Positions 11,082-62,379 of a stretch of 64,000 nt of DNA are shown in pieces (the stretch's first letter is position 1; each line of letters starts with the position of its first letter). Origin of the DNA: Caldicellulosiruptor changbaiensis. Its GTDB lineage: Bacteria; Bacillota; Thermoanaerobacteria; Caldicellulosiruptorales; Caldicellulosiruptoraceae. The notes beneath the pieces were generated by a model that had not been told where the DNA came from, did not search any database, and saw only the letters and a list, made by a program, of their open reading frames with translations. The translations under genes and the position numbers were made by a program. Location of the stretch: the NCBI RefSeq assembly GCF_003999255.1, contig NZ_CP034791.1, positions 1 to 64,000 on the forward strand, given 5' to 3'.

Positions 11082-11845
11082 ATTTCAATCCCCAAAGGGT
11101 AGGCTACAAACTACAGCTACTATGATAACGGGAACTTAACGACTTGGTTTCAATCCCCAAAGGGTAGGCTACAAACAATGCTGGATTCAGACCAGCACTA
11201 TTGGAGAAAAGACGTTTCAATCCCCAAAGGGTAGGCTACAAACTTTCCTTGTAGTATTTCTTCCTATCTGCCATAAGGTGTTTCAATCCCCAAAGGGTAG
11301 GCTACAAACCAATATGTATCACCAATATTTACCCATAAAGTACCGTTTCAATCCCCAAAGGGTAGGCTACAAACAGAAATAAAGGAATTGTTTTTATTAC
11401 AATACGAAAAGTTTCAATCCCCAAAGGGTAGGCTACAAACCATTAGTTAAAGAACTTTTAGATGAAAATGAAATATGTTTCAATCCCCAAAGGGTAGGCT
11501 ACAAACTCTGTAATTGCAGTATTTATTTGTATTGCATAATTTTGTTTCAATCCCCAAAGGGTAGGCTACAAACCTAAGCTGCATACCACTCTTCAGCTGC
11601 TCGCTCAGCGGTTTCAATCCCCAAAGGGTAGGCTACAAACTGGTGAGAAGATGAAGCTGACGATGGATTTCTTTGTAGGTTTCAATCCCCAAAGGGTAGG
11701 CTACAAACGGGCGGTGGGAACCGCTCTATTTTTTTTGAAAGGGGTGTGTTTCAATCCCCAAAGGGTAGGCTACAAACTTACGAAAATGTAATACAAATTT
11801 TGTGCAAGTTGCTCAGTTTCAATCCCCAAAGGGTAGGCTACAAAC
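11082..11845 (-). CRISPR. CRISPR array 1 (12 repeats, 11 spacers)
   Basis: Twelve 30-bp repeats start at 11082, 11147, 11214, 11280, 11345, 11411, 11477, 11544, 11611, 11679, 11748 and 11816. On the plus strand the repeat is GTTTCAATCCCCAAAGGG followed by T and then AGGCTACAAAC. Read on the minus strand it ends in ATTGAAAC, the usual 5' crRNA handle, so transcription runs leftward. Spacers are 35-39 bp. The leftmost repeat is altered at its outer end (ATTTC for GTTTC), as expected of the oldest repeat. The conserved leader is at the right end. Confidence 0.97.
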
Positions 11846-12095
11846 ACGTTAGAAAGCTTAGTTTTATTATATCAACTTTATGCAAAGGTGTCAATGTTTT
11901 TATTTTAGTACACCATATCAAAATGCCACTCAAATAAGAAGTACCAAGGTTTCGATCCCCATAAAACCCTTCCGTCTATCCAGCTGTTGCCAGCAATCCA
12001 GACGAACCCTTACCACATCTTGATGAAACCGTATACAAATCAAACCTCAAAAATTTTGCACTGGAGATCGACGGAAGTGACTTTTAGTCAAAGTA
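11846..12095 (-). promoter_or_regulatory. CRISPR leader 1 with sigma-A promoter
   Basis: About 250 bp, conserved in sequence beside arrays 2 to 5. On the minus strand it carries TTGACA (11889-11894), a 17-bp spacer and TATAAT (11866-11871). This places the start point only some 10-15 nt before the first repeat. Further conserved blocks are CTTCCGTCTATCCAGCT, a TCGAC block near 12070 and GACTTTTAGTCAAA near the outer end. Confidence 0.88.
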
Positions 12096-34306: not shown

Positions 34307-34800
34307 GGTTCAATCCCCAAAGGGCAGGCTACAAACCCCGCTGAAGATACCAATTTTGAAGTCAATATAAAAGTGTTTCAATCCCCAAAGGGTAGGCTAC
34401 AAACTGAAGATGATGATGAAGATGAAGACGAAGACGACGGTTTCAATCCCCAAAGGGTAGGCTACAAACACAGAAACTCATTGCTGAAAGAGTAGGACAG
34501 GACTGGTTTCAATCCCCAAAGGGTAGGCTACAAACTTGAAGGTGATTACTACGTACTTGTTAAACCAGAAGGGTTTCAATCCCCAAAGGGTAGGCTACAA
34601 ACAGGCGGTGCTATTAGTGAAGTCTAAGAAGATGATAGGTTTCAATCCCCAAAGGGTAGGCTACAAACGGATGGTACTGGTAGTGTGATTTATAGTTTTC
34701 CGACGTTTCAATCCCCAAAGGGTAGGCTACAAACAGATTTTATTTATCACTCCATATATGAACTCTTCCAGTTTCAATCCCCAAAGGGTAGGCTACAAAC
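34307..34800 (-). CRISPR. CRISPR array 2 (8 repeats, 7 spacers)
   Basis: Repeats start at 34307, 34375, 34440, 34506, 34573, 34639, 34705 and 34771. The leftmost (oldest) carries GGGC at the variable position and a GGTTC end; the other seven carry GGGT. Spacers are about 35-38 bp. The spacer at 34405-34439 is a GA-rich low-complexity run of GATGAAGA-type units. The leader is at the right, so transcription is leftward. Confidence 0.97.
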
Positions 34801-35050
34801 ACGTTGAAAAGTTTGATTTTATTATATCAACATTATACATCCATGTCAATGTTTTTATATCAAAACATCTGTGGATAAGTCATCTCAGCAAAGAAAAATC
34901 AAGCCATAAAACCCTTTTAACCCCTTCCGTCTATCCAGTCGCTGCCAGCAATTTGATCTAATCTACACACTACAAGCCTGAAATCGCATACAAAACAAGC
35001 CTCAAAATTTTGCTACCGGAGGTCGACAGACATGACTTTTAGTCAAAATG
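34801..35050 (-). promoter_or_regulatory. CRISPR leader 2 with sigma-A promoter
   Basis: Minus-strand TTGACA (34844-34849), 17-bp spacer, TATAAT (34821-34826), 20 bp from the first repeat. Also present are CCTTCCGTCTATCCAG, GGTCGAC (35021-35027) and a final GACTTTTAGTCAAAATG. Same length and block order as leaders 1, 3, 4 and 5. Confidence 0.88.
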
Positions 35051-36882: not shown

Positions 36883-37352
36883 GTTTCAATTCTTAAAGAG
36901 CAGTCTACAAGCTCCCTTCCTTTCTCAATTCCCAACGGGCAGGCTACAAACGGAACTATTGTGGATATTCACACTTGTCCAGTCTGCGTTTCAATCCCCA
37001 AAGGGCAGGCTACAAACGACCTTTTTCTGCTGTTCCAAGAAGATAAATAGTAGGTTTCAATTCCCAAAGGGTAGGCTACAAACTAAATGTATGGTGCATT
37101 GGCAAGTAATGTTTCCAAGCGTTTCAATCCCCAAAGGGTAGGCTACAAACTATGGAGAAGCGAAGACAAAAATGGCAGGAGAAAGTAAAGTTTCAATCCC
37201 CAAAGGGTAGGCTACAAACTAAATAGAAGGTGATAATAGCAAGCAAAAAGAACGTGTTTCAATCCCCAAAGGGTAGGCTACAAACAACGTTGTGCGTGGG
37301 TCTATTTTGATATTACTTAGTAAATTCAATCCCCAAAGGGTAGGCTACAAAC
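36883..37352 (-). CRISPR. CRISPR array 3 (8 repeats, decayed at both ends)
   Basis: Repeats start at 36883 (highly degenerate), 36922 (degenerate), 36988, 37054, 37121, 37190, 37256 and 37323. The first two are separated by only about 9 bp. The repeats at 36922 and 36988 carry the GGGC variant, later ones GGGT. The leader-proximal repeat (37323) has an altered end, so the minus-strand handle reads ATTGAATT instead of ATTGAAAC. Spacers in the intact part are about 36-40 bp. Confidence 0.93.
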
Positions 37353-37605
37353 AACTTGTTGGAATGCTTGATTTAATTATATCAACTTTATGCACCAGTG
37401 TCAATGTTTTTATTTTAGAACATACCTTAAAAACAAACTCAAAGCCAACAATATCAAGTCTTAAAACCAAATCAAAGTCTTTCGTCTATCCAGCTGCTGC
37501 CAGTAGTCAAGATAAACCCACAACCAACAAGGATGAAACCGTGTTCAAATCAATCTCTAAAAATTTTACACCTGGGGTCGACGGATATGACTTTTGGTCA
37601 AAATG
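37353..37605 (-). promoter_or_regulatory. CRISPR leader 3 with sigma-A promoter
   Basis: Minus-strand TTGACA (37399-37404), 17-bp spacer, TATAAT (37376-37381). Conserved blocks GTCTATCCAGCTGCTGCCAG, GGGTCGAC and GACTTTTGGTCAAAATG follow. Promoter spacing is identical to the other four leaders. The stretch from 37606 to 37912 shows no gene. Confidence 0.87.
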
Positions 37606-37998: not shown

Positions 37999-40446
37999 TT
38001 GTGCTTGGGGAAAGAAACTTATAGAAACTTAATTGCTGTGACGGCTCTTTTACATGATATTGGCAAATTTATCCGAAGAAGTGGGCTTGGATCTCTTTCC
38101 CACCAGGAAGAATCAAAAAAATTTTTAGAAAAGTATATGGAAAAGTTTAGGAACAAAAATCTATTTACCAATCAAGAACTAGAACTTATAAAAAGACTCA
38201 TAGAAAATCACCACAATATTGAAAAAATAAACAAAAGCTCAGCTTGTAGCGATGCAGAAAACAACTTACTGAAGATTTTAATTTATTCAGATTGGGACTC
38301 TGCATCCGAAAGAAGGCAAGAGAAAGAGACCAGTGGTTCTCAAGAATATGTACCAATTCACAGTATACTGTCTTTTATAAATGAAGCGTTTGATATTGAT
38401 GAGGCGCTTCGTCAGGGAGAAGAAGATAAAATTTTTGAACATATTTCGTATGTAAGAGCATTTTCACCTCAGGATGCCTTTGTCTATGAAAGGCCCGAAC
38501 TTAACCCTGCGCACCCTGTTGTGGAGGATAACCGAAAAAGGTTTGAAATTTTTGAAAGTGAGTTTAAGACTCTTATTGAGGAAAGTAAAAACCAATATGA
38601 ATTTGTATTAAGGTTGAATTACATTCTCAAAAAGCATACAACATACATTACTTCGAGCGGAAAGGAAAAGATAAGAGACATTTCGCTGTACCACCACAGT
38701 GCAACAACTGCCATGTTTGCAATCAACAGACTAATAGATTTTGAGCATGGTGAACAAATAGAACAACGCAAGCAATATGGTGCAGTTTATGGGAGATTGT
38801 TTAAAATTCAGGATTACATCTTTTCTGGTATAAATAGTAAAATTGAGAAACCTTTGAAAAGAATTATAACAAGGTCGCAGTTAGTGTCTATCCTCAACAT
38901 GTTAATTCCATACGATATAGTTAAAACATTAGATTTGTATCCTTTCAACATCATCTTTTATGGCGGAGGAGCATTTTTGATATTAATCCCTCTTTCATAC
39001 ATTTCAAAAGCTCAAGAGAGAATAAAGGAGATTAAAAAAACAGTAGATGAGATTTTCGAATCAAAGATTTATTTTGAAGCTGTTTATGAGAGAATTTCAG
39101 TATATGAAAATGGCTATGTTTTAGGTAATGAATTAAAAAGCTTGGGAGAGAAGCTCTCTGAAAAGAAATTTGCACGATCATTTGATACCATAGCTCCTTT
39201 TATTCACGAAAAATATTTTGAAAAAGCATATTTCAAATGTGAAAATTGCAAAATAAACTCTTCCAAGACGATATTATCTGGTGAGAATTTCGTATGTAAG
39301 TGCTGTCAAGTTGAAGAGAAATGGATGAACGAAGATATTACAAAGTTAAAATTTTTATTTGACCGCCTGTACGTTGAAAACATACAGGACCCAGAGTTGT
39401 TATCTGCTGGTGCTGACAGTAATAGTGCCTTGGTTTTGACCTTTACCAAAAGTGAGGCAGAAAATAGAAAGTGCATTGATACATTTTTACAGGGAAGAAA
39501 GTTTATTTACACGGCTGATTTTTGTCAAAGGTGTCCTGAATACGATGATTGTGCTGAGCCTTACAAACATATTCTTTCAGAAGAAGATGAAAGGCTTACA
39601 ATGAAATTGGCAAGTTTGGATTGCTTAGAAAAGATGAGTGACTCAGACAATATAATTGCAACAGCAAAGATGGACATTGACGATTTGGGTTTTATTCTGT
39701 ACAGTATTTATCCTATAAAGGTTTTACAGAATGAAAGCTATCCGTTTTCTATCACCAGACTTTCTTATGCGTCGTGGCTTTTAAATTTGTTTTTCACAGA
39801 AGGAGTTAAAAAAGTAATAAATGAAAAGTTCAAGGATGATGTCATGATTTTATATAGCGGTGGCGATGATCTTTTGCTCACCGGTGTGTGGTACAAGGTT
39901 ATAGAAGCAATTGACGAGATTGAAAAAGAATTTTCCCAGTTTGTAACAGGTAAAGTGATAGACAGAAAAAATGTTACGGTGACAGCTTCGATATATTTCC
40001 ACAGGGCACATGAAAATTTTGACAGTGTCTTGATAAAATTAAATGAAGGACTTGAAGAGGCTAAGAAAATAAAAAATAGAGTATTTCTGTTTGATAATGT
40101 GATAAGCTATCCAGAGCTGCGAAGAAGCTTAGATATATCTAAGAAAATTGTAGATTATGTAAATGAAAAAGTTTTAGGCAAACTAATTATAAGAAAATTG
40201 TTGAGAATACTTGAATGGAGAAAACTTAGAAATTGTTACCAAGAGATTAAGGCAACTTCCCACTATGTATATCTAAAAACAAGGCTTATAGAAAATAATA
40301 AAAACTTATCTGAAGATAAGAAAAAAGAGGTGATTGAATTTTTGGATTCTTTTATGAGCCTTCATACCGATAATTCTAATGTGTCAATGGCCATTGTTGC
40401 GATAAATATAGCGCTCAGGAAATTAATAAAAGAAAGTGAGGAGTGA
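37999..40446 (+). CDS. cas10: Cas10/Csm1, type III-A CRISPR effector
   Basis: Large subunit of the Csm complex, about 815 residues. N-terminal HD nuclease motif ALLHDIGKFIRR (H20-D21). The first palm-like domain is followed by a four-Cys zinc site (FKCENC...CKCC). The second palm carries an intact GGDD in ILYSGGDDLLLTG (residues 621-624), which makes cyclic oligoadenylates from ATP on target binding. Both activities are therefore predicted. The start codon is TTG, at 37999 or 38005; GGTGGTG at 37991 fits either. First gene of the cas operon, 8 bp before csm2. Confidence 0.95.
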   Translation: MCLGKETYRNLIAVTALLHDIGKFIRRSGLGSLSHQEESKKFLEKYMEKFRNKNLFTNQELELIKRLIENHHNIEKINKSSACSDAENNLLKILIYSDWDSASERRQEKETSGSQEYVPIHSILSFINEAFDIDEALRQGEEDKIFEHISYVRAFSPQDAFVYERPELNPAHPVVEDNRKRFEIFESEFKTLIEESKNQYEFVLRLNYILKKHTTYITSSGKEKIRDISLYHHSATTAMFAINRLIDFEHGEQIEQRKQYGAVYGRLFKIQDYIFSGINSKIEKPLKRIITRSQLVSILNMLIPYDIVKTLDLYPFNIIFYGGGAFLILIPLSYISKAQERIKEIKKTVDEIFESKIYFEAVYERISVYENGYVLGNELKSLGEKLSEKKFARSFDTIAPFIHEKYFEKAYFKCENCKINSSKTILSGENFVCKCCQVEEKWMNEDITKLKFLFDRLYVENIQDPELLSAGADSNSALVLTFTKSEAENRKCIDTFLQGRKFIYTADFCQRCPEYDDCAEPYKHILSEEDERLTMKLASLDCLEKMSDSDNIIATAKMDIDDLGFILYSIYPIKVLQNESYPFSITRLSYASWLLNLFFTEGVKKVINEKFKDDVMILYSGGDDLLLTGVWYKVIEAIDEIEKEFSQFVTGKVIDRKNVTVTASIYFHRAHENFDSVLIKLNEGLEEAKKIKNRVFLFDNVISYPELRRSLDISKKIVDYVNEKVLGKLIIRKLLRILEWRKLRNCYQEIKATSHYVYLKTRLIENNKNLSEDKKKEVIEFLDSFMSLHTDNSNVSMAIVAINIALRKLIKESEE

Positions 40447-40454
40447 TTTTTGTC

Positions 40455-41075
40455 ATGCCAAGACCCAATAACTTGCCCCATAGAGGTAATAATAGAAATG
40501 CTCAGAACAGGACTGCCACTTCACAAAATCAAAGATCATCAACTTTAATAATTGACGAAGATAAGCAGAGAGAATTGGAACAAAATAAACATGATTTATT
40601 TGAGTTAATTAAAGACGACAATGGTTTTTGTGATGAACATGGTATCAGATATGAGGTGGCAGAAAAAATAGAAAAGTTTGCAGAGTATCTGAATGCAGCT
40701 TATGTTCAAAATGATAGTGACGTTGGGGTGACATCTTCAAGCATCCGAAATATATATGACAACTATATTTCTATAAAACGCAAGTTCCAGACTGTTCAGT
40801 TAGAGCAAAGAGAGATAGAAGATGCAGAAACAAGAAAAGAAAATGCGTTTATGAAGATCAAACCCGAGCTTATATTTGTAAAATCTAAAGTGAATTACAC
40901 TGTTGAAAGAAAACTAAAAGAGGAGAGAAATGAAGCAAAAAAGCAGATTAAGGAACTTTCTTACAATGCTTTGAAGGAATTCATAAACATTTCAACCACT
41001 AAGATAACTACAAGCTACAATCAATTTGAAGCTTTTATAAAAATTTTTGAAACATTGGTTGGGTTTATGAAGTGA
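40455..41075 (+). CDS. csm2: Csm2, small subunit of the Csm complex
   Basis: About 206 residues from ATG 40455 (site AGGAGTG). The helical C-terminal 120 residues match Csm2: VAEKIEKFAEYLNAA, SSSIRNIYDNYISIKRKF, FMKIKPELIFVKSKVNY and FEAFIKIFETLVGFMK. The N-terminal 45 residues (PRPNNLPHRGNNRNAQNRTA) are a disordered, Asn/Arg-rich extension not needed for the fold. Csm2 forms the inner belly of the complex along the target RNA. Followed by csm3 after 33 bp. Confidence 0.9.
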   Translation: MPRPNNLPHRGNNRNAQNRTATSQNQRSSTLIIDEDKQRELEQNKHDLFELIKDDNGFCDEHGIRYEVAEKIEKFAEYLNAAYVQNDSDVGVTSSSIRNIYDNYISIKRKFQTVQLEQREIEDAETRKENAFMKIKPELIFVKSKVNYTVERKLKEERNEAKKQIKELSYNALKEFINISTTKITTSYNQFEAFIKIFETLVGFMK

Positions 41076-41108
41076 GATAATAAAAACTAAGAAATTGGAG
41101 GGTTTTTG

Positions 41109-41825
41109 ATGGAGAACAATGAGATGCTTTTAAAACAAATAATAGTGCTCAAAACAATAATGAAGATAAAAACAGGTTTGAGGATTGGTGGAAGCAGAGA
41201 AGAGTTGAAGATTGGAGATATAGACAATCCGGTGATAAGAGACCCTCTAACAAATGAGCCGTATATACCTGGTTCGTCGTTGAAAGGTAAAATGAGGTCG
41301 TCGTTAGAAATAACATTAAAAGGAACTAAAGATCCATGCAATTGTGGAAATTGTCCTATATGTGTACTCTTTGGAGCTGCTAAAAACAAACCTCAGTCAG
41401 GAGAAAAAGAAGTAACAAGGCTTATTGTAAGAGACAGCTTCATGACTGAAAAATCAAAAAAGCTTCTTTTGGATTTTGTTGGTGACTATGTCGAAATTAA
41501 AAAAGAGAATGTCATAAACAGAGTAACAGGAGTTGCGAAAGATCCGCGCACGCTTGACAGGATTCCCGCTGGCACAGAATTTGAATGCGAATTTGTACTC
41601 AGAATTTATCAAAAAGACCAGGAAAAAGTAGAAGAATATATTAAATACATTGAGACTGCATTAACGCTGATAGAACTTACTTACTTAGGTGGTTCTGGGA
41701 CAAGAGGTTATGGTAAGGTTGAGTTTGGAGAGAATGGAAATAAGATTATTGAGAAAAAGGTTTATGAAATAGTCAAATCAGAAGATGGTTTTGTAAAAGT
41801 TGAAGAAAAATCAGAAGATTCTTAA
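41109..41825 (+). CDS. csm3: Csm3, RAMP backbone subunit and target RNase
   Basis: 238 residues from ATG 41109 (site GGAGGG). It has an RRM-like RAMP fold with the signatures LKIGDIDNPVIRDPLTNEPY, IPGSSLKGKMRS and the C-terminal glycine loop GGSGTRGYGKVEF. The Asp in GDIDNPV (about residue 39) lines up with the residue that cuts target RNA every 6 nt in other Csm3 proteins. A cysteine group CNCGNCPIC near 78-86 probably binds zinc, also usual. Several copies line the crRNA. Confidence 0.94.
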   Translation: MENNEMLLKQIIVLKTIMKIKTGLRIGGSREELKIGDIDNPVIRDPLTNEPYIPGSSLKGKMRSSLEITLKGTKDPCNCGNCPICVLFGAAKNKPQSGEKEVTRLIVRDSFMTEKSKKLLLDFVGDYVEIKKENVINRVTGVAKDPRTLDRIPAGTEFECEFVLRIYQKDQEKVEEYIKYIETALTLIELTYLGGSGTRGYGKVEFGENGNKIIEKKVYEIVKSEDGFVKVEEKSEDS

Positions 41826-41852
41826 CTGTCAGTAAAAAGGGGAAGAAAAAAG

Positions 41853-42788
41853 ATGATATACAGAGCAGATTTTTTGATAAGTTCGTCATCTTCAAAACTC
41901 ATATCTCCTGTTATTTTTGGAGCGATTGCAGATAAGGTTTTTGAGCTAACAGAAGAAAAACAGGCAAAAGAACTTGTTTTTGACATGGCACAAAATGTTC
42001 TTATTTCAGATGCACTACCTTCAGAAGAGGAAGAAGATGATTTTATAAGATATTTCTACGTTCCAAGAATTATACCGCCCTATGAAGATGATCAAAATTC
42101 CCTTAGTTTGCGTGAAAGAAGAGAGCTTGCGAGAAAGAACAAAAAACTTGCGAAGAGTGTAAGTCTGGTTGAAATAGACAATAGCGGAATTTTAAAAGAG
42201 GCAGATCCTTCAAAAGTAAAAGATCCAGTTGATTTTTACCGCATAGGAATTCAGGTAAACAGAAAAAGCGCTGCATCAGAAGTGGGTATTTTTTTCTACC
42301 ATCAAGAATTCAGATTTTCTAAAAAGCAATGTTATTCAATTTATATCCAATGTAAAAAGCCGAGTCTTGTTAACAAAATAGAAGAGTGTTTTAAAGTCAT
42401 TGAACTTACTGGATTTGGGCCAGATGTGTCAATCGGTAAGGGGAAAATCTCATTTTTAAGGCACAATCAAAGAATACTTTGCCGAGATGAAGTGACTGAG
42501 CAGTTCTTTGACAGTGAGCCGGATGTTGAAAAAGAATATGTAAACATAGCTTCAACAATCCTTTTTGACAAAGCAGTTTCAGCATGTCAATTCAAAAGTT
42601 ATCAAACATTTAGATATGACAGCAAGGGCTATGGTGTATTCAAACCCCCATACTTTTGTGCAGAAAGAAGTTCAGTTGTAGTTCCAAAAGGTAAAGATTT
42701 GAGTTTTTTGATAGAGTACAAAGGAAGATTTATATATACTTGCATTTTTCCGTTGAGGCTCATTCAAATAGGTGGTGAAAAGATTTGA
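41853..42788 (+). CDS. csm4: Csm4, crRNA 5'-handle binding RAMP subunit
   Basis: 311 residues. It has the RAMP start IYRADFLISSSSSKLISPVIFGAI and the glycine-rich loop ELTGFGPDVSIGKGKISF, typical of Csm4, which caps the 5' handle end and contacts Cas10. An acidic stretch (SEEEEDDFIRYFYVPRIIPP) lies near 50-70. Ribosome binding site AAAAGGGGAAG. Its stop overlaps the start of csm5 by 4 bp, so the two are translationally coupled. Confidence 0.9.
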   Translation: MIYRADFLISSSSSKLISPVIFGAIADKVFELTEEKQAKELVFDMAQNVLISDALPSEEEEDDFIRYFYVPRIIPPYEDDQNSLSLRERRELARKNKKLAKSVSLVEIDNSGILKEADPSKVKDPVDFYRIGIQVNRKSAASEVGIFFYHQEFRFSKKQCYSIYIQCKKPSLVNKIEECFKVIELTGFGPDVSIGKGKISFLRHNQRILCRDEVTEQFFDSEPDVEKEYVNIASTILFDKAVSACQFKSYQTFRYDSKGYGVFKPPYFCAERSSVVVPKGKDLSFLIEYKGRFIYTCIFPLRLIQIGGEKI

Positions 42789-43987
42789 AAGAAAAGTATT
42801 CTGTAAAAACATACGAGTTACGTTTGAGGGCTTTGACAGACTTTTGTGTGAGCGCAAATCAAGACGCTGTTGTGGAAAGCTCAGACTACATCATACATGA
42901 CAAGTATGCTTACATCATAGATAGCAAGGCTGTATTTAATATGCTAAAAGATGGGATAATTTCTGAAAGAGATCTTGAGGATGTAAAAGAGTTTTTGAAA
43001 AATAACCCTGAATATTTGGAAAAGTATTTTAAAACCCGCAGATTAGAACTTGCCAGAAACTATGAGAATATGCTAAGTATAAGTAGATTTTGGAGATATT
43101 TGGATATAAAAGAGAATGAGGTAACAGAAAATTATGCAGTTCCTGCAAGTACAATTAAAGGTATCCTGAATACAGGGTTTTTAAGTTTCTTTTTAGAAGA
43201 TATCGAGTACGTGTATGCAAGAGGACAAAAAGCAAGATTGAATTTAAAATCATTAAAAGTTAACAATGCCCAGGCAAGAATTGATAACACACAAAGCCTT
43301 TTTAAAACTTTTGAAAGTAAAGAGGACTTTCAAAAAGGTTTAAAAGTTTTCTACGCTGCTCAAAGTAGTTGGGAAGAAAAGGGATATTTAGATGAAATAA
43401 GAGAAGCTGAAGATATATTTGATTCTATCGAAAAAAGTCTTTTTAGAACTGTAGAGTGTTTAGATGCTGTATTTAAAGAAGGAAGTTTCATAGTTAAAAA
43501 GGTGAAGAGATTAAGCAGGGCGAACAACAGGTCAGCCCTACCTCAATACTTTGAGCTTGCTCAAAAAGGAAGTCTTTTTGCAGGAAAGGTGCAAGTTTCA
43601 GTACCTCATGACGGAGAACCATTGAGTTCTTTAAGCTTTCTTTACGAAGATTCAAACTACATTGAAGACCTAAACGTAATGGATATTTGCATTGAAGGTT
43701 TGAAAATATACAGCAAAAAATTGGTAAAAGCCGAGGAAAAATTCTTTGCTCAGAAGATTGGTAGTTTAAATAGTCAGAGTCAAAACTTTTACAATGATCT
43801 TTGGTCTGAGTGCGAAAGAGGCAATATTGTAATAAAGATAGGAAAAAGCGGCATTCATGCAAAAAGCTTTATGTCATTTGACTCTAATAATTTAGAAAAA
43901 AATGACTTTTTTCCTTATACCATTAACATTGACGACGAAAATAAGCTTCCTATAGGATGGGTAAAATTAGAAATCGAGGAAGAATGA
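42785..43987 (+). CDS. csm5: Csm5, RAMP subunit at the crRNA 3' end
   Basis: 400 residues with a TTG start at 42785 after GGTGGTG, overlapping the csm4 stop. It has the Csm5 pattern: YELRLRALTDFCVSANQDAV, YIIDSKAVFNML, and VPASTIKGILNTGFLSFFLE (the RAMP IPGSSIKG equivalent, here VPASTIKG). The C-terminal half keeps FPYTINIDDENKLPIGWVKLEIEEE. Csm5 binds the 3' end of the crRNA and recruits trimming nucleases in other systems. Followed by cas6 after 3 bp. Confidence 0.88.
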   Translation: MKEKYSVKTYELRLRALTDFCVSANQDAVVESSDYIIHDKYAYIIDSKAVFNMLKDGIISERDLEDVKEFLKNNPEYLEKYFKTRRLELARNYENMLSISRFWRYLDIKENEVTENYAVPASTIKGILNTGFLSFFLEDIEYVYARGQKARLNLKSLKVNNAQARIDNTQSLFKTFESKEDFQKGLKVFYAAQSSWEEKGYLDEIREAEDIFDSIEKSLFRTVECLDAVFKEGSFIVKKVKRLSRANNRSALPQYFELAQKGSLFAGKVQVSVPHDGEPLSSLSFLYEDSNYIEDLNVMDICIEGLKIYSKKLVKAEEKFFAQKIGSLNSQSQNFYNDLWSECERGNIVIKIGKSGIHAKSFMSFDSNNLEKNDFFPYTINIDDENKLPIGWVKLEIEEE

Positions 43988-43990
43988 AAT

Positions 43991-44728
43991 ATGCGATATA
44001 AAATAAGATTTTACACAGAAAATGATATGAATATAAGCATACATTACAATATTGAACTGGCAAAGGCAGTTAGAAATTTGCTCAACCCCAAATACCGTGA
44101 ATTTGTTGACAAAGGTGGGTTTAGCTTAGGGAAAACTATTTACAAACCATATACATTTTCACGTTTATTTCCTCAGGAATACAGGGTTATAAATTCAAAG
44201 TTAGAAATTAAAAAAGGATATGTTGACCTTATTGTGTCTAGCATCGATGAAAATTTTTGGTTTTCATTTCTTGAGGGACTACTCAAGGAGAAGAAAATAA
44301 CCCTTTATGGTAATACAATGTGCTTGGATTCGTTTGCTATAAAGAAGTTTAAAAGGAAAAACAAAATGATAGTAAAAACTTTATCTCCAATTATGTGTAG
44401 GATAAATCTTTCAGAACAAACGAAAAATGAGTTTGAACTGTTTTTGAAAGGAAATGTGGTAAATAAAGCATGCGTTTTTAAAAAAAGAATCTTTTCTTTA
44501 GATGATATTAATCTCAAATTTTTTGAAAATACGGTAAAAGAAACTGTGGTTATATTGAATGGCACTCCAAACAAAGCATACTCAGGTCTAATTTTGCTTG
44601 ATGGTGACGAAGATATTGTTGAGGTTGCGTATTTTACAGGGATAGGGCCGAAAAATGCTCTTGGGTTTGGCTGTGTTGAAGATATAAAGCTCAAAAATGA
44701 AAGGGTCATATATAAGCTTTCTTTGTAA
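43991..44728 (+). CDS. cas6: Cas6 endoribonuclease (pre-crRNA processing)
   Basis: 245 residues with two RRM-like halves. The N-terminus has MNISIHYNIELAKAVRNLL, with a His (about residue 18) that could be the catalytic base. The C-terminal glycine-rich loop is TGIGPKNALGFGCVEDI (about 216-232), the Cas6 signature. It would cut within each repeat 8 nt before the spacer, leaving the ATTGAAAC handle present in all intact arrays here. It lies inside the csm operon, 3 bp from csm5. Confidence 0.92.
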   Translation: MRYKIRFYTENDMNISIHYNIELAKAVRNLLNPKYREFVDKGGFSLGKTIYKPYTFSRLFPQEYRVINSKLEIKKGYVDLIVSSIDENFWFSFLEGLLKEKKITLYGNTMCLDSFAIKKFKRKNKMIVKTLSPIMCRINLSEQTKNEFELFLKGNVVNKACVFKKRIFSLDDINLKFFENTVKETVVILNGTPNKAYSGLILLDGDEDIVEVAYFTGIGPKNALGFGCVEDIKLKNERVIYKLSL

Positions 44729-44782
44729 ATTGGTGAAAAGTTACCATACGAAAAATTAAAGTTTTGGAGGAAATGATGTGAG

Positions 44783-45694
44783 ATGGGAAAGAAGTTTTTG
44801 AGTTTTTTAGGGGCAAACAACTACACACCTAGCACATACACGTTAAATATTTTGGATAAAAATGATTCAAAGTATGCAAAGTACACGCAGGTAGTCTTAC
44901 TAGAGAAGATTTGCAATCAGTGGGATGAAGATGCAAAAGGGTTCATATTTGTTACACAAGAAGCAAAGAGGGTAAACTGGGATGGTGGAGATGAAAATAA
45001 TCAAAGTTTGAAAAGAGAAATTGAAAAACTAAAAGAGGCAGGAACTATTAAATTTGAAGTTGAAGCCGTTGAAATACCCAATGGTTTTTCGGAACAAGAT
45101 ATTTGGAAGATTTTTGAAATAGTAGTTAATCATATTGAGGAAGAGGACGAGATAGTCTTTGACATAACTCATGGCTATAGGTATTTACCAATGCTTATTG
45201 TTGTTATGTTAAGCTATCTAAAAACAGTAAAAAATATTAATATTTTGGGTATATATTATGGACTTTTTGAAGTAAAGGATAGCAACAAGCCAATTCTAAA
45301 TTTTACTCCATTCATAGACCTTTTGGATTTGAGCTTTGGAGTGAGTGCATTCCTGCATTTTGGAGATGGTTCGTATCTTGAAAATACATTGCTTTGTAAA
45401 AAGGATGTTTGTGTTAAAAACGAAAAGCAAAAACTTATCCAAAGTGGTTTGGATATAGAGATAGCTGAAAAGAAGATTGAAAAGATGTTTGCTTCAAACG
45501 AGTGGTTCAAAGGAATAAACGATTTAATCAGCTTTGCAAAGTCTTTGAGAAATTTTACTGATTCTATCTTTACTCTAAGAGGCAGATGTACACAGAATCG
45601 CGATGAGTCAATTTTTGCTGCTCACAAAGATTTAAGAGAAAAAATTGAAAAGGTTCAAAACTTGGATGCAGATATTTCAAGCCTCTCAAATTAA
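44783..45694 (+). CDS. CARF-domain effector, DxTHG (TM1812/Csx2-type) family, sensor part
   Basis: 303 residues. The CARF fold starts KKFLSFLGANNYTPSTYTL, and the family signature DITHGYRYLPML places D127, T129, H130 and G131 (DxTHG). The CARF domain would bind cyclic oligoadenylate made by Cas10. It then runs into a helical region and stops at 45694 without any HEPN motif; the HEPN part is the next gene, overlapping by one base (TAATG). Related proteins carry both parts in one chain. GGAGG lies 12 nt upstream. It is the seventh gene of the csm unit. Confidence 0.85.
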   Translation: MGKKFLSFLGANNYTPSTYTLNILDKNDSKYAKYTQVVLLEKICNQWDEDAKGFIFVTQEAKRVNWDGGDENNQSLKREIEKLKEAGTIKFEVEAVEIPNGFSEQDIWKIFEIVVNHIEEEDEIVFDITHGYRYLPMLIVVMLSYLKTVKNINILGIYYGLFEVKDSNKPILNFTPFIDLLDLSFGVSAFLHFGDGSYLENTLLCKKDVCVKNEKQKLIQSGLDIEIAEKKIEKMFASNEWFKGINDLISFAKSLRNFTDSIFTLRGRCTQNRDESIFAAHKDLREKIEKVQNLDADISSLSN

Positions 45695-46173
45695 TGGTGG
45701 AAAAGATAAAACAGAAAACTCAGAAGTTTGAAAATGCCGATAACCTTATAGTTGGGGAAGAAGTTATCAAGTGGTGCAAAGAGTATTCCCTTATAGCTGA
45801 AGGATATGTTGCGTTAGAGGAAACTATGATAACCTATCTTTGCAGGGTTTTAGGAGTTGATGAGAATGATTCAGATGTTAGAAAACTTGTTTCTGCTGCA
45901 GCAACCAAAAAGAGTAAGCAGAAAAATGAACAAATAGAGACAAAGAATATATATGAAGCTGAGACAAAAGAGAATGAAAAAATACATGAGATGGCTAAAA
46001 GTATTCCGATAGAAATTGCAGGTTTTATTGAGAGGATAAAGGCAAAAAGAAACTCAGTGATGCATTTTGGCTTTACTAAAGACAGGATAGGGAGTGGGAA
46101 AATAATCAAAGAGTTTGAGGAGCTTGTTGAAGAGGCACTCAAATTACTATCTCAAACAAAAAATCAAGTTTAA
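45694..46173 (+). CDS. HEPN-domain partner of the CARF effector
   Basis: 159 residues, all helical, beginning on the TAATG overlap with the CARF gene. The HEPN RNase motif R-x4-H is visible as AKRNSVMHFGF (R119, H124). A charged Lys/Glu linker (KKSKQKNEQIETKN) lies near 72-95. It corresponds to the C-terminal half of one-chain DxTHG proteins. The two proteins would need to bind each other for cyclic-oligoadenylate-controlled RNA cleavage. Coupled translation would keep them equimolar. Alternatively this is a recent frameshift split; no other lesion is visible. Confidence 0.8.
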   Translation: MVEKIKQKTQKFENADNLIVGEEVIKWCKEYSLIAEGYVALEETMITYLCRVLGVDENDSDVRKLVSAAATKKSKQKNEQIETKNIYEAETKENEKIHEMAKSIPIEIAGFIERIKAKRNSVMHFGFTKDRIGSGKIIKEFEELVEEALKLLSQTKNQV

Positions 46174-46255: not shown

Positions 46256-47247
46256 GTTTAAATCCTTAAATTTGAAGACTACAAGCCCCAACTCTTCCTT
46301 AAATCCCCAAAGGGCAGGCTACAAACATGAAGATTTAAACGACTATTCGATTGTGCTGAAAGTGTTTCAATCCCCAAAGGGCAGGCTGCAAACCGAATTA
46401 GAGTACAGGGTTGGAACATTGGTGCAACCGTTTCAATCCCCAAAGGGCAGGCTACAAACAAATCAATATTTGTCTTCTTCTTTTTATGTTTGTAGGTTTC
46501 AATCCCCAAAGGGCAGGCTACAAACTTGTTGAATGGTAAGTATTGGTTATGTACTAAATAGTTTCAATCCCCAAAGGGAAGGCTACAAACCGTGGGCGGG
46601 GCGGCTGAGGGCAAGAAAAGAAGAAGTTTCAATCCCCAAAGGGAAGGCTACAAACACAAGAGGCAGACCTCTTACCCTGGCACGTCTTGAGTTTCAATCC
46701 CCAAAGGGAAGGCTACAAACCCAGAGAGTGATTTTGGACAGGCAGCAGCAAAGAAAGTTTCAATCCCCAAAGGGAAGGCTACAAACAAAGATTGAGAATC
46801 ACATTATTGACATTAAAAGAATGTTTCAATCCCCAAAGGGAAGGCTACAAACCTTTGATGGGTGGCGTTGCAACGTCACTAATCATGTGTTTCAATCCCC
46901 AAAGGGAAGGCTACAAACCCGCTAACATGAAAAAGGAGGCAGTTTTAAATGGTTTCAATCCCCAAAGGGAAGGCTACAAACACAACTACACCATACAACT
47001 TGGGTTGGTTAAAGACGTTTCAATCCCCAAAGGGAAGGCTACAAACAAAAACATGCGAAGGAGGAGATACTCAATGACTAAACAGTTTCAATCCCCAAAG
47101 GGAAGGCTACAAACATAGCTTTTAAAAGTCCTAAGTAGCCTTCTTGAATCGTTTCAATCCCCAAAGGGAAGGCTACAAACCAGATTTATCACAATGGGGG
47201 AAAATTCCTTATTTAAAGTTTCAATCCCCAAAGGGAAGGCTACAAAC
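46256..47247 (-). CRISPR. CRISPR array 4 (16 repeats, 15 spacers)
   Basis: Repeats start at 46256 (degenerate), 46297, 46364, 46430, 46496, 46561, 46626, 46691, 46757, 46823, 46889, 46952, 47017, 47085, 47151 and 47218. Numbers 2 to 5 have GGGC; numbers 6 to 16 have GGGA. Repeat 3 has a CTGCAAAC end. The gap between the first two repeats is only about 10 bp, as in array 3. The leader is on the right, so the newest spacers are at 47181-47217. Confidence 0.97.
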
Positions 47248-47498
47248 ACGTTAAAAGACTTAATTTTATTATATCAAGATTATACACCCATGTCAATGTT
47301 TTTATATCAAAACATCTGTGAAAAACTCACATCAAGCCAGAAAAATCAGACTATATAACCACCTCAAAGCCTTCCGTCTATCCAGCTACTGCCAGAAGTT
47401 TTGCAAAAACCATGCCAAATCTTTTTGAAACCGCATACAAATCAACCTTTAGAATTTTACTACCTGAGGTCGACAGATGTGACTTTTGGTCAAAATGA
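47248..47498 (-). promoter_or_regulatory. CRISPR leader 4 with sigma-A promoter
   Basis: Minus-strand TTGACA (47291-47296), 17-bp spacer, TATAAT (47268-47273), 20 bp from the first repeat. CCTTCCGTCTATCCAGCT, GGTCGAC (about 47468) and GACTTTTGGTCAAAATG are conserved. Confidence 0.88.
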
Positions 47499-47628: not shown

Positions 47629-48588
47629 TCAATTTCTATGCTTTACACGAAGTTCTTTTATTCTCTCAAGCGAAAGCCCTGTAATCTCTGCTATCTCCTC
47701 ATCTTTGTAACCTTTTAAAATCATCCTCTCAGCTGTCTCTATTCTGCTCTGCTCAAAACCTTGCTGAAGTCCTTGCTGAAGTCCTTCAAAAATCAACTCT
47801 TCTTTTATCTTTCTCAAATTCTGAAATAGTGGCATAACTTTTTCACCCCCTCTTACACTCTCATCAATCGCTCTTTTGGCAGCCTCAACTTCTATCTCAT
47901 CAAGCTCCCTCAAAGCAGCTGGCAAACATACCTTCAATACCTCTATCTCCTTCTCCTCTGCACCCAATAAATATTCTCCAAGCTCTAAAATTAGCCTCTC
48001 TAACTCCTCATACCTTTTTATCCTGTTGAGCTTCAATATTAAGCTCAGTATGTCTTTTACCTGCAAAATGCTTTCTGCTTGGTTTAAGTCAATCAATATA
48101 TACTCAAAATCAATTACGCAATTTCCAAACTCCTCAAATCCTAAAATCTTTTCCTTAAGTCTTCTTGCGGCTGTCCACCTGTCTTCCCCGTCGTAAAATA
48201 CTATCGGCACAACTGCCGGTAATGTAAATCCCTTTTTCTTTATTTCCCCTCTGTCAAAATCCTTGATATAGTCTCTGTATATATCTGTGATGTAAAACAA
48301 AAGCCTCAAGGGCATTGAATGGTCAACTGAAGACTGGTGTTCAAACAAAATGTAAAAGATAATTTCTTTTTCTTTTAAGCTTACTTTATAAAGCAAATCA
48401 CTTTCTTCTTGAGAAAAATCAGGTAGCACATAGCTTTTGTCAATTCTTTCAAGCTGGTCTTCTGTAAGATTTTTGAATATTCCAATCTCATCAAGCCTTT
48501 TCAGAAGCCTGAGGAAAATGCTTTTGTTAGAGAATATGTATTTGTACTCAAGGTCGTTTATGTTATGAGGGAGCTGGTTATTATTCAT
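47629..48588 (-). CDS. Rpn family recombination-promoting nuclease / putative transposase
   Basis: About 319 residues from ATG 48588 (site CAGGTG). It is a PD-(D/E)xK-type protein: DLEYKYIFSNKSIFLRLLKRL, ESDLLYKVSLKEKEIIFYILFEHQSSVD (the E-x-Q nuclease pattern) and AVVPIVFYDGEDRWTAARRLKEKI. It ends with a coiled coil of repeated QQGLQQGFEQ and a helix-turn-helix-like ETAERMILKGYKDEEIAEIT. Rpn proteins cut DNA and promote RecA-independent recombination in E. coli. It lies between array 4's leader and array 5's oldest end. Confidence 0.88.
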   Translation of the reverse strand: MNNNQLPHNINDLEYKYIFSNKSIFLRLLKRLDEIGIFKNLTEDQLERIDKSYVLPDFSQEESDLLYKVSLKEKEIIFYILFEHQSSVDHSMPLRLLFYITDIYRDYIKDFDRGEIKKKGFTLPAVVPIVFYDGEDRWTAARRLKEKILGFEEFGNCVIDFEYILIDLNQAESILQVKDILSLILKLNRIKRYEELERLILELGEYLLGAEEKEIEVLKVCLPAALRELDEIEVEAAKRAIDESVRGGEKVMPLFQNLRKIKEELIFEGLQQGLQQGFEQSRIETAERMILKGYKDEEIAEITGLSLERIKELRVKHRN

Positions 48589-48636
48589 TGTTTTCACCTG
48601 AGGAGTTCTTCTGAAAACATTATAGCAGATGGGAAG

Positions 48637-48657
48637 GAAAATATCAAACATATTTTC
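48637..48657. repeat. Inverted repeat shared by two Rpn gene upstream regions
   Basis: GAAAATAT-CAAAC-ATATTTTC, perfect 8-bp arms. The identical sequence, with several more matching bases on each side, occurs at 60530-60550, at nearly the same distance from the other Rpn start. It may mark the mobile element's outer end or an operator. Confidence 0.7.
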
Positions 48658-48672
48658 TTATCCTCTTCTTCT

Positions 48673-49499
48673 GCATCAATCCCCAAAGGGAAGGCTACAA
48701 ACATATGCTGCGACTTGGACAGCTGGTACAAATCTTGTGTTTCAATCCCCAAAGGGAAGGCTACAAACTGAAACTGCTTTTGTTTTTGAAGATGCAAAAG
48801 TTATGTTTCAATCCCCAAAGGGCAGGCTACAAACAATGATAGAAGAATACATTATGAAATTAAAAAATCCGTTTCAATCCCCAAAGGGCAGGCTACAAAC
48901 CAAAATAGTAGGGATTTAATTCCGAGTAATTTTGTAGTTTCAATCCCCAAAGGGCAGGCTACAAACATTAGGTGGAACGGTAACAGTTCAATTAAGGAAA
49001 GACGTTTCAATCCCCAAAGGGCAGGCTACAAACCTTTGCTGGCAAGATATATACGCAAGAAAGAAGAATGTTTCAATCCCCAAAGGGCAGGCTACAAACT
49101 AGGATTCGAAGAGGGCTTGACTTTGGTTATGCAGTGTTTCAATCCCCAAAGGGCAGGCTACAAACCACTCTGGGCTGACCTACTGCTTGGTGAAAGGCCA
49201 GTTTCAATCCCCAAAGGGCAGGCTACAAACCAGCAAACTTGACATGTATAATGAGGCTACAAAAAATGCGTTTCAATCCCCAAAGGGCAGGCTACAAACA
49301 GTAAGGAGGGGATTTTATGACAGTATGGGAAATGGTGTTTCAATCCCCAAAGGGCAGGCTACAAACGAATGACATTGTCAGAAATTGCGAGATATGCATT
49401 GCAAGTTTCAATCCCCAAAGGGCAGGCTACAAACATATTAGCTTAAATACCAAAGACCAAGTGAGAGTAGTTTCAATCCCCAAAGGGCAGGCTACAAAC
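48673..49499 (-). CRISPR. CRISPR array 5 (13 repeats, 12 spacers)
   Basis: Repeats start at 48673 (altered end GCATC), 48739, 48805, 48871, 48937, 49004, 49070, 49136, 49201, 49270, 49337, 49405 and 49470. The two oldest carry GGGA, the remaining eleven GGGC, the reverse of array 4. No terminator is seen between its oldest end and the Rpn gene 85 bp away, so the CRISPR transcript may read into that gene. Confidence 0.97.
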
Positions 49500-49749
49500 A
49501 CGTAAAAAAGCTTGATTTTATTATATCAAGATTATACACCCATGTCAATGTTTTTATATCAAAACATCTGTGGAAAACTTAAATCAGCCCAGAAAAATCA
49601 GACTATATAACCACCTCAAAGCCTTCCGTCTATCCAGCTACTGCCAAAAGCTTTTAAAAAGCCACATCAAATCTGAATGAAAACGCATACAAATTAACCC
49701 TTAAAATTTTACTACCTAAGGTCGACGGATATGACTTTTGGTCAAAATG
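49500..49749 (-). promoter_or_regulatory. CRISPR leader 5 with sigma-A promoter
   Basis: Minus-strand TTGACA (49543-49548), 17-bp spacer, TATAAT (49520-49525), 20 bp from the first repeat. Nearly identical to leader 4 through most of its length, ending in GGTCGAC (about 49720) and GACTTTTGGTCAAAATG. From 49750 to 49973 there is no gene that I can support. Confidence 0.88.
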
Positions 49750-59753: not shown

Positions 59754-60479
59754 CTAATTATACAGTGGACACAATTTTATTTTAACTCCCTCAAGCTCTC
59801 TCAGCGCTGCTGGCAAACACACCTTCACAATATCTACTTCATTCTCTTTTGCATCCTCCAAATACTCCCATAGACTTGAAAATATCTTCTCTAACTCTTC
59901 ATAACTTCTTACCCTGTTTAGCTTCAATATAAGACTCAGTACATCCTTGTACTTGAGTAAACTCTCCTCAGCTTTTCCAAGGTCAATCAAGATGTATTCA
60001 AAATCAATTATATACTTCCCAAACTCTTCAAATCCTAAAATCTTTTCTTTAAAACTTGTAGGTACTGTCCATGTATCTTCTCCATCATAAAACACTATTG
60101 GTACCACCGCTGGAAGCAAAAAGGTTTTTCTCTTGAGAGTGCTCTTGTCAAACTGTTTAACATAATCCCTGTAAAGGTCGGTTATGTAGAACAAAAGTCT
60201 TATTGGTATCGAATGGTCGACTGTTGACTGGTGTTCAAACAGGATGTAAAAAAGAAGCTCAGAGTCTTTCAAATTGACTTTGTAAACAAGATCACTTTCC
60301 TGTTCAGAGAAATCTGGCAGAACATAGCTTTTGTCAATTCTTTCAAGGCTGTCTTCTGTGATGTTTTGGAATATTTGCAAAAAGTCAAGCCTTTTTAAAA
60401 GACGCAAAAACAGACTTTTATTGGAAAATATGTACTTGTATTCAAGGTCGTAGATAGAGTGAGGGAGTTGATTTTCCAT
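59754..60479 (-). pseudogene. Rpn gene, N-terminal fragment
   Basis: About 241 codons from ATG 60479 (GTG 60482 is the alternative; site AAGGAGT): ENQLPHSIYDLEYKYIFSNK, LLFYILFEHQSTVDHSIPIR and AVVPIVFYDGEDTWTV. It is close to the intact Rpn protein at 47629-48588 and ends at RELEGVK, where the IS256 element begins. The joined gene would have been about 340 codons. Confidence 0.88.
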
Positions 60480-60529
60480 CACAAGTACTCCTTATGTGTT
60501 TCTGATAAGAATTATAACACAGAAAAAAG

Positions 60530-62149: not shown

Positions 62150-62379
62150 ATTTCCAAAGAGCAGACTGCTAATGCCCGTTCACTCAATCTCAAAGGAGAG
62201 GCTACAACCACCCTTTCATATCGCAATTCCCAGAGGGAAGGCTACAAACGATGGGCTGGTTTAGTAAAGAGGGTAGCTGCCATAGTTTCAATCCCCAAAG
62301 GGGAGGCTACAAACAAAGCTGTTGCAGAACCTACTGCCACATATAACGTATTTCAATCCCCAAAGGGGAGGCTACAAAC
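62150..62379 (-). CRISPR. CRISPR array 6 (decayed, about five repeats)
   Basis: Two near-intact repeats at 62285-62314 and 62350-62379 carry the GGGG variant. Leftward are three degenerate copies (about 62150-62175, 62180-62209 and 62220-62249) with gaps of only about 5-10 bp between them. The leader found beside arrays 1 to 5, including its promoter, is missing to the right, so the array is probably silent. Confidence 0.85.

Follow-up and report, generated by a model that had tools for sequence, protein, structure and literature searches.

CRISPR leaders, arrays and cas genes in the window

The window, that is, the whole 64-kb stretch of DNA analyzed here, contains five homologous CRISPR leaders, each adjoined on the minus strand by an array with the repeat GTTTGTAGCCTNCCCTTTGGGGATTGAAAC. 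All five leaders are non-coding and abut the first repeat directly, and each carries a promoter and three distal blocks, called A, B and C, at the positions given below (parts of leaders are on the minus strand).

11846-12095, minus strand: leader 1; array 11082-11845, 12 repeats
11866-11894, minus strand: leader 1 promoter; -35 TTGACA 11889-11894, 17 bp, extended -10 TGATATAAT, -10 11866-11871
12079-12092, minus strand: leader 1 block A, TTTGACTAAAAGTC
12064-12075, minus strand: leader 1 block B, TCCGTCGATCTC
11970-11984, minus strand: leader 1 block C, GCTGGATAGACGGAA
34801-35050, minus strand: leader 2; array 34307-34800, 8 repeats; promoter 34821-34849, block A 35034-35047, block B 35019-35030, block C 34925-34938
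37353-37605, minus strand: leader 3, with a 3-bp insertion beside the first repeat; array 36883-37352; promoter 37376-37404, block A 37589-37602, block B 37574-37585, block C 37480-37494
37999-46173, plus strand: type III-A csm operon (Cas10/Csm1, Csm2, Csm3, Csm4, a 400-aa protein, Cas6, Csx1/TM1812-like)
47248-47497, minus strand: leader 4; array 46297-47247, 15 repeats; promoter 47268-47296, block A 47481-47494, block B 47466-47477, block C 47372-47386
49500-49749, minus strand: leader 5; array 48673-49499, 13 repeats; promoter 49520-49548, block A 49733-49746, block B 49718-49729, block C 49624-49638

The csm operon thus lies between leaders 3 and 4. Its 400-aa protein (42785-43987) has no match in Pfam or NCBIfam and, used as a query, none in the genome contig collection; judged by position, it is perhaps a diverged Csm5. 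Genes for type I-B Cas4, Cas1b, Cas2, Cas8b, Cas7b, Cas5b and Cas3 are found at about 94.6-102.7 kb of the contig, in the cluster to which the csm operon also belongs. The minus-strand repeats end in ATTGAAAC and the promoter points into the array, a layout in which the repeat 3′ end would provide the 5′ tag of the crRNA, as predicted for a type I-B leader, and Cas1, Cas2 and Cas4 are present in the same genome, as such a leader demands. A sixth, small array (62220-62379) has an unrelated leader: its TTGACT-17-TATAAT lies about 69 bp from the repeat, and further upstream there is a hairpin whose GTCGAC arms flank GGGGG/CCCCC. Arrays are also adjoined by a pair of related Transposase_31 (YhgA/Rpn-like) genes, at 47629-48651 and 59754-60482, with 75-77% similarity in their DNA.

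A near-consensus promoter beside the first repeat

The first-pass annotation had described TTGACA, a 17-bp spacer and TATAAT in all five leaders, and these elements are indeed present without mismatch on the minus strand in 5/5; the gap between TATAAT and the first repeat, put at 20 bp (23 bp in leader 3), measures 20, 20, 23, 20 and 20 bp, the longer gap being accounted for by the 3 bp inserted at the leader 3 junction. The exact pattern TTGACA-N17-TATAAT occurs 44 times in the 2.9-Mb window genome, compared with 3 times for the same pattern reversed as a control. Of the 44 sites, 10 sit in CRISPR leaders. For genus-wide statistics, 59 full leaders from 11 of 12 Caldicellulosiruptor genomes were extracted and aligned. 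TATAAT is exact in 57/59 and TTGACA in 49/59 of them, the spacer is 17 bp in 57/59, and the -10 element lies 20 bp from the first repeat in 49/59. Two features had escaped the earlier description: an extended -10 TGA (TGATATAAT), found in 55/59 leaders, and an A-tract preceding the -35 element. Conservation of TGYATAA at leader positions -39 to -33, between the -35 and -10 elements, equals that of the hexamers and exceeds what a sigma-A promoter needs.

Transcription usually starts 7 nt from the -10 element. Because of this distance, a leader RNA of 14 nt is predicted (e.g., AAGCTTTTTAACGT), with the start in leader 1 expected at about 11859, and the predicted +1 position is occupied by A in 58/59 leaders. 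The ~10-15 nt originally proposed for the leader RNA is therefore narrowed to a predicted value of about 14 nt, now backed by 59 leader sequences. We regard the near-consensus promoter as the part established by sequence, and from it we infer the position of the start.

A perfect promoter is found in 30/30 arrays with at least 8 repeats, as counted within 7 kb, versus 17/29 smaller ones (Fisher p = 5e-5, for arrays that are phylogenetically non-independent), and promoter mismatches are confined to small arrays.

Differences in leader length cluster at the very end of the leader, within a few bases of the first repeat. Inspection shows eight leaders with insertions or deletions at the junction, versus about seven such changes in the 217 bp before it (binomial p about 8e-10). 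The eight are the window leader at 37353 and L041, L046, L049, L050, L066, L067 and L094. Such changes might stem from insertion or repair that is occasionally imprecise where spacers are integrated, or they may reflect no more than weaker constraint. At base 12 the repeat carries A, C, G or T, and this letter forms long uniform blocks and switches along arrays, both in relatives and in the window (arrays 46297-47247, 48673-49499 and 36883-37352). It changes 28 times among 582 neighboring repeats, compared with 59 changes expected if the repeats were shuffled, a pattern that fits, as far as the repeats themselves can tell, each new repeat being copied from the first.

A genus-wide leader family with three distal blocks

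The same ~250-bp element is found in 11/12 genomes of the genus, and the window genome has 12 homologous leaders, of which five are in the window and the twelfth is a decayed copy. Being common to 11 of 12 species, it is taken to be a real shared control element, which probably serves both array transcription and array extension. Blastn against 49 genomes outside the genus found no leader of this family, nor did a profile search of 25 further genomes from the same class, and the exact leader pattern has no match in the genome and viral contig collections, from which records near the window were possibly excluded. One weak profile match outside the genus was rejected, as it lies in apparent coding sequence with no CRISPR repeat nearby. 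The Cas1 of the cas cluster, typed I-B in the window genome, is present in 11/11 leader-bearing genomes; the sole leaderless genome, on which the contrast depends, lacks it and has only a second Cas1. The array that goes with this second Cas1 differs both in its repeat and in its leader, whose -10 element lies about 39 bp from the repeat.

Two decayed leaders, L043 (window genome, about 119.4-119.6 kb) and L082 (G008), have kept blocks A and B together with a single degenerate repeat and have lost the promoter. In G008, all eight aligned arrays (L074-L081) have only 1-3 repeats, with nearly intact promoters and distal blocks and with Cas1 present. In L181 (350-860, G001), what is left of a second distal leader half adjoins an intact leader on its upstream side, and L091 (G011) resembles a mosaic of two leader types; as these two cases indicate, leaders duplicate and recombine.

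Block A (TTTGACYAAAAGTC, at about -247) forms a TGAC-N5-GTCA palindrome in 50/59 leaders, block B reads YGTCGACC (about -228), and block C reads CTGGATAGACGGAA / GGATAGACGGAA (about -138). The first-pass annotation had noted distal blocks kept at a fixed distance. This holds for the spacings, which are identical in all five window leaders, but not for the letters, which differ among them: block C matches CTTCCGTCTATCCAGCT exactly in the leaders at 11846, 47248 and 49500 and departs from it by one to three changes in those at 34801 and 37353, GTCGAC is intact in 4/5 (leader 1 has GATCGAC), and GACTTTTGGTCAAAATG is exact in the leaders at 37353, 47248 and 49500. Conservation in relatives had been singled out beforehand as the point to check, and the blocks are indeed kept genus-wide at fixed distance. 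Spacings were taken from anchor distances, gapped pairwise indel counts having been dropped because the aligner added compensating gaps; they are 17 bp between A and B in 58/58 leaders, 92 bp between B and C in 52/52 scored leaders, and 217 bp between block A and the -10 element in 52/58.

Besides the promoter, blocks A, B and C are the slowest-changing parts of the leader. Column parsimony gives mean steps of 16.6 for the flank upstream of block A, 5.3 for the leader, 1.1 for the block C 14-mer and 0.7 for the -10 block, and conserved columns of the distal part are more tightly clustered than in any of 5000 permutations. A uniform substitution rate along the leader is not what we observe; the sequence between the blocks varies freely while the blocks stay fixed. 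Across 12 genomes, every exact match to block A (47/47) and to block C (40/40) falls in a leader or leader remnant, with none at cas or other promoters, so the binding partner is likely to be specific to leaders and unlikely to be a general regulator. Block integrity shows no correlation with array size (Mann-Whitney p = 0.94), so the evolutionary record cannot separate a role in adaptation from one in transcription. These are conserved, leader-specific motifs far from the junction and at a fixed distance from it, as with motifs of the Csa3a kind, and by analogy with Csa3a (PMC9456107) and with the type I-D motifs (PMC10212523) it is plausible that the distal blocks serve the adaptation machinery.

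When a block B profile made from other genomes is scored along each leader, the highest mean among 631 positions and strands falls on block C, inverted, and block C ranks first or second in 42/59 leaders. In G006, block C reads GGTCGACGGAA and is the best B match of all sites in that genome's leaders; outside G006 the inverted match is weak to modest, and it would fall short of significance had the two windows been picked arbitrarily. Because of this modest match, we go only so far as to say that B and C, whose centers are 93 bp apart, are probably inverted copies of one site.

The window genome has a single HU-family gene and therefore no IHF pair, and an exact IHF consensus near the repeat is seen in only 9/59 leaders; an IHF-dependent leader of the type I-E/I-F kind was rejected on these two counts. 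Phased A/T tracts, considered as a candidate source of intrinsic bending, give a power of 1.35 at 11 bp versus 0.42 in shuffled sequence, but fall below the control at 10.5 bp.

A putative compound leader and its alternatives

We consider it fairly probable that these are compound leaders, in which a strong sigma-A promoter is combined with distal sites where an adaptation complex would dock independently of IHF. One ~250-bp control element would then be common to the arrays served by a single type I-B Cas4-Cas1-Cas2 set, and the standard start would fall on the A about 14 nt before the first repeat. The open complex of RNA polymerase spans about -55 to +20 and would here extend over the leader-repeat junction, the site of spacer insertion by Cas1-Cas2; initiation and spacer insertion would therefore have to alternate and could never be simultaneous. 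The distal blocks would most likely bind the adaptation complex, or an accessory protein that folds the leader, and the folded leader would deliver the integrase to the junction with no need for IHF; B and C, probably two inverted versions of a single site, would share in the docking. Since the strongest promoters are found on the longest arrays, a conflict between polymerase and integrase would not obviously be harmful. More tentatively, we suggest that polymerase and integrase compete because the promoter overlies the insertion site, and that a long, rigid, IHF-free assembly, anchored on two inverted sites with 93 bp between them, guides the integrase around the promoter and on to the junction; if so, array expression and array growth would be directly coupled. 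The original observation is confirmed in a stronger form than first stated, and the interpretation attached to it is partly supported: the promoter close to the repeat is backed by sequence, and sites for the adaptation machinery are a plausible reading of the distal blocks.

The distal blocks might instead be operators through which a transcription factor controls the array promoter, and take no direct part in insertion, a reading that we find doubtful but worth weighing. The fixed spacing from block A to the -10 element and the palindromic form of block A (50/59) would suit an operator, and S. islandicus Csa3a, acting on a leader-distal motif at -143 to -94, is a reported activator of array transcription (PMC9456107). 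As Csa3a is needed for adaptation too, however, the two roles are not exclusive. Against operators stand a promoter already near consensus, the location of the blocks 80-200 bp upstream of the -35 element and the lack of exact A and C at any other promoter in the 12 genomes, cas operons included.

Short leader-proximal stretches suffice for spacer insertion in type II-A and I-E systems, and by this precedent insertion could use only the last leader bases and the repeat, leaving the blocks some other leader-bound role such as stopping read-through that comes from genes upstream or organizing the array cluster; PMC4390879 cites 42-60 bp for E. coli. We hold this to be improbable, given that exact A and C are confined to leaders and, for read-through, that leader 1 has no terminator-like site.

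That leaders are alike through recent copying along with their arrays, by duplication or gene conversion, and not through selection on the distal blocks, seems very unlikely to us: the mosaic L091, the duplicated leader fragments and some orthologous leaders that diverge more than their flanks speak for copying, but the inter-block sequence is free to vary where the blocks are fixed, block positions and order recur across 11 genomes, and the flanks upstream of block A are mostly unalignable. The distal part is long and conserved, as a gene or structured RNA would be, but can hardly be either one, as no reading frame is open in more than 14/59 leaders, predicted RNA pairs are without any compensatory change, and Rfam matches are to repeats only.

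In most CRISPR subtypes, it is still a question how an adaptation complex reaches the leader end when IHF takes no part. The leader family described here, represented by 59 sequences with sharply bounded, leader-specific blocks at fixed distances in thermophilic bacteria with many arrays each, makes this question testable, and the placement of its promoter allows a direct test of interference between transcription and spacer insertion.

Leaders of related design are known. In type I-A Sulfolobus islandicus, the leader-distal motif of Csa3a acts in concert with a leader-proximal site, and mutation of the motif lowers adaptation (PMC9456107); the conserved motif is distal there as well, about 100-140 bp from the repeat, but the promoter is archaeal, the regulator is MarR-like and the sequences are others, whereas the Caldicellulosiruptor leaders have three blocks reaching -250. 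In Sulfolobales, leader conservation extends over about 230 bp (PMC4390879). In cyanobacterial type I-D (Kieper et al., 2019), as reviewed in PMC10212523, three motifs (I-III) in a ~200-bp leader raise spacer uptake, and bending by an unidentified factor is proposed there; the three conserved motifs recall those described here, in a different subtype and with different sequences. Clostridioides difficile type I-B is reported to have two conserved inverted-repeat motifs upstream of every array (PMC8406132) and resembles Caldicellulosiruptor in subtype and in having many arrays per genome, the motifs being likened by description. In Escherichia coli type I-E, a single leader likewise holds the array promoter and integrase-guiding sites, but the promoter is weak, the leader is IHF-dependent and the distance from transcription start to repeat is about 50 nt in CRISPR-1 and 95 nt in CRISPR-2 (PMC10011333), compared with a near-consensus promoter, a predicted start at about 14 nt and no IHF pair in Caldicellulosiruptor. 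The start lies 33 nt from the first repeat in Nanoarchaeum equitans (PMC3491384), and Pyrococcus abyssi leaders contain short conserved elements whose distance from the first repeat is fixed, one of them at -100 from the start (PMC3124441), although these are fewer and shorter and accompany an archaeal BRE/TATA promoter. Leaders with promoters and adaptation motifs are thus known; what is new is a near-consensus promoter with a predicted start ~14 nt from the repeat, coupled to a rigid, IHF-free layout of blocks over 250 bp.
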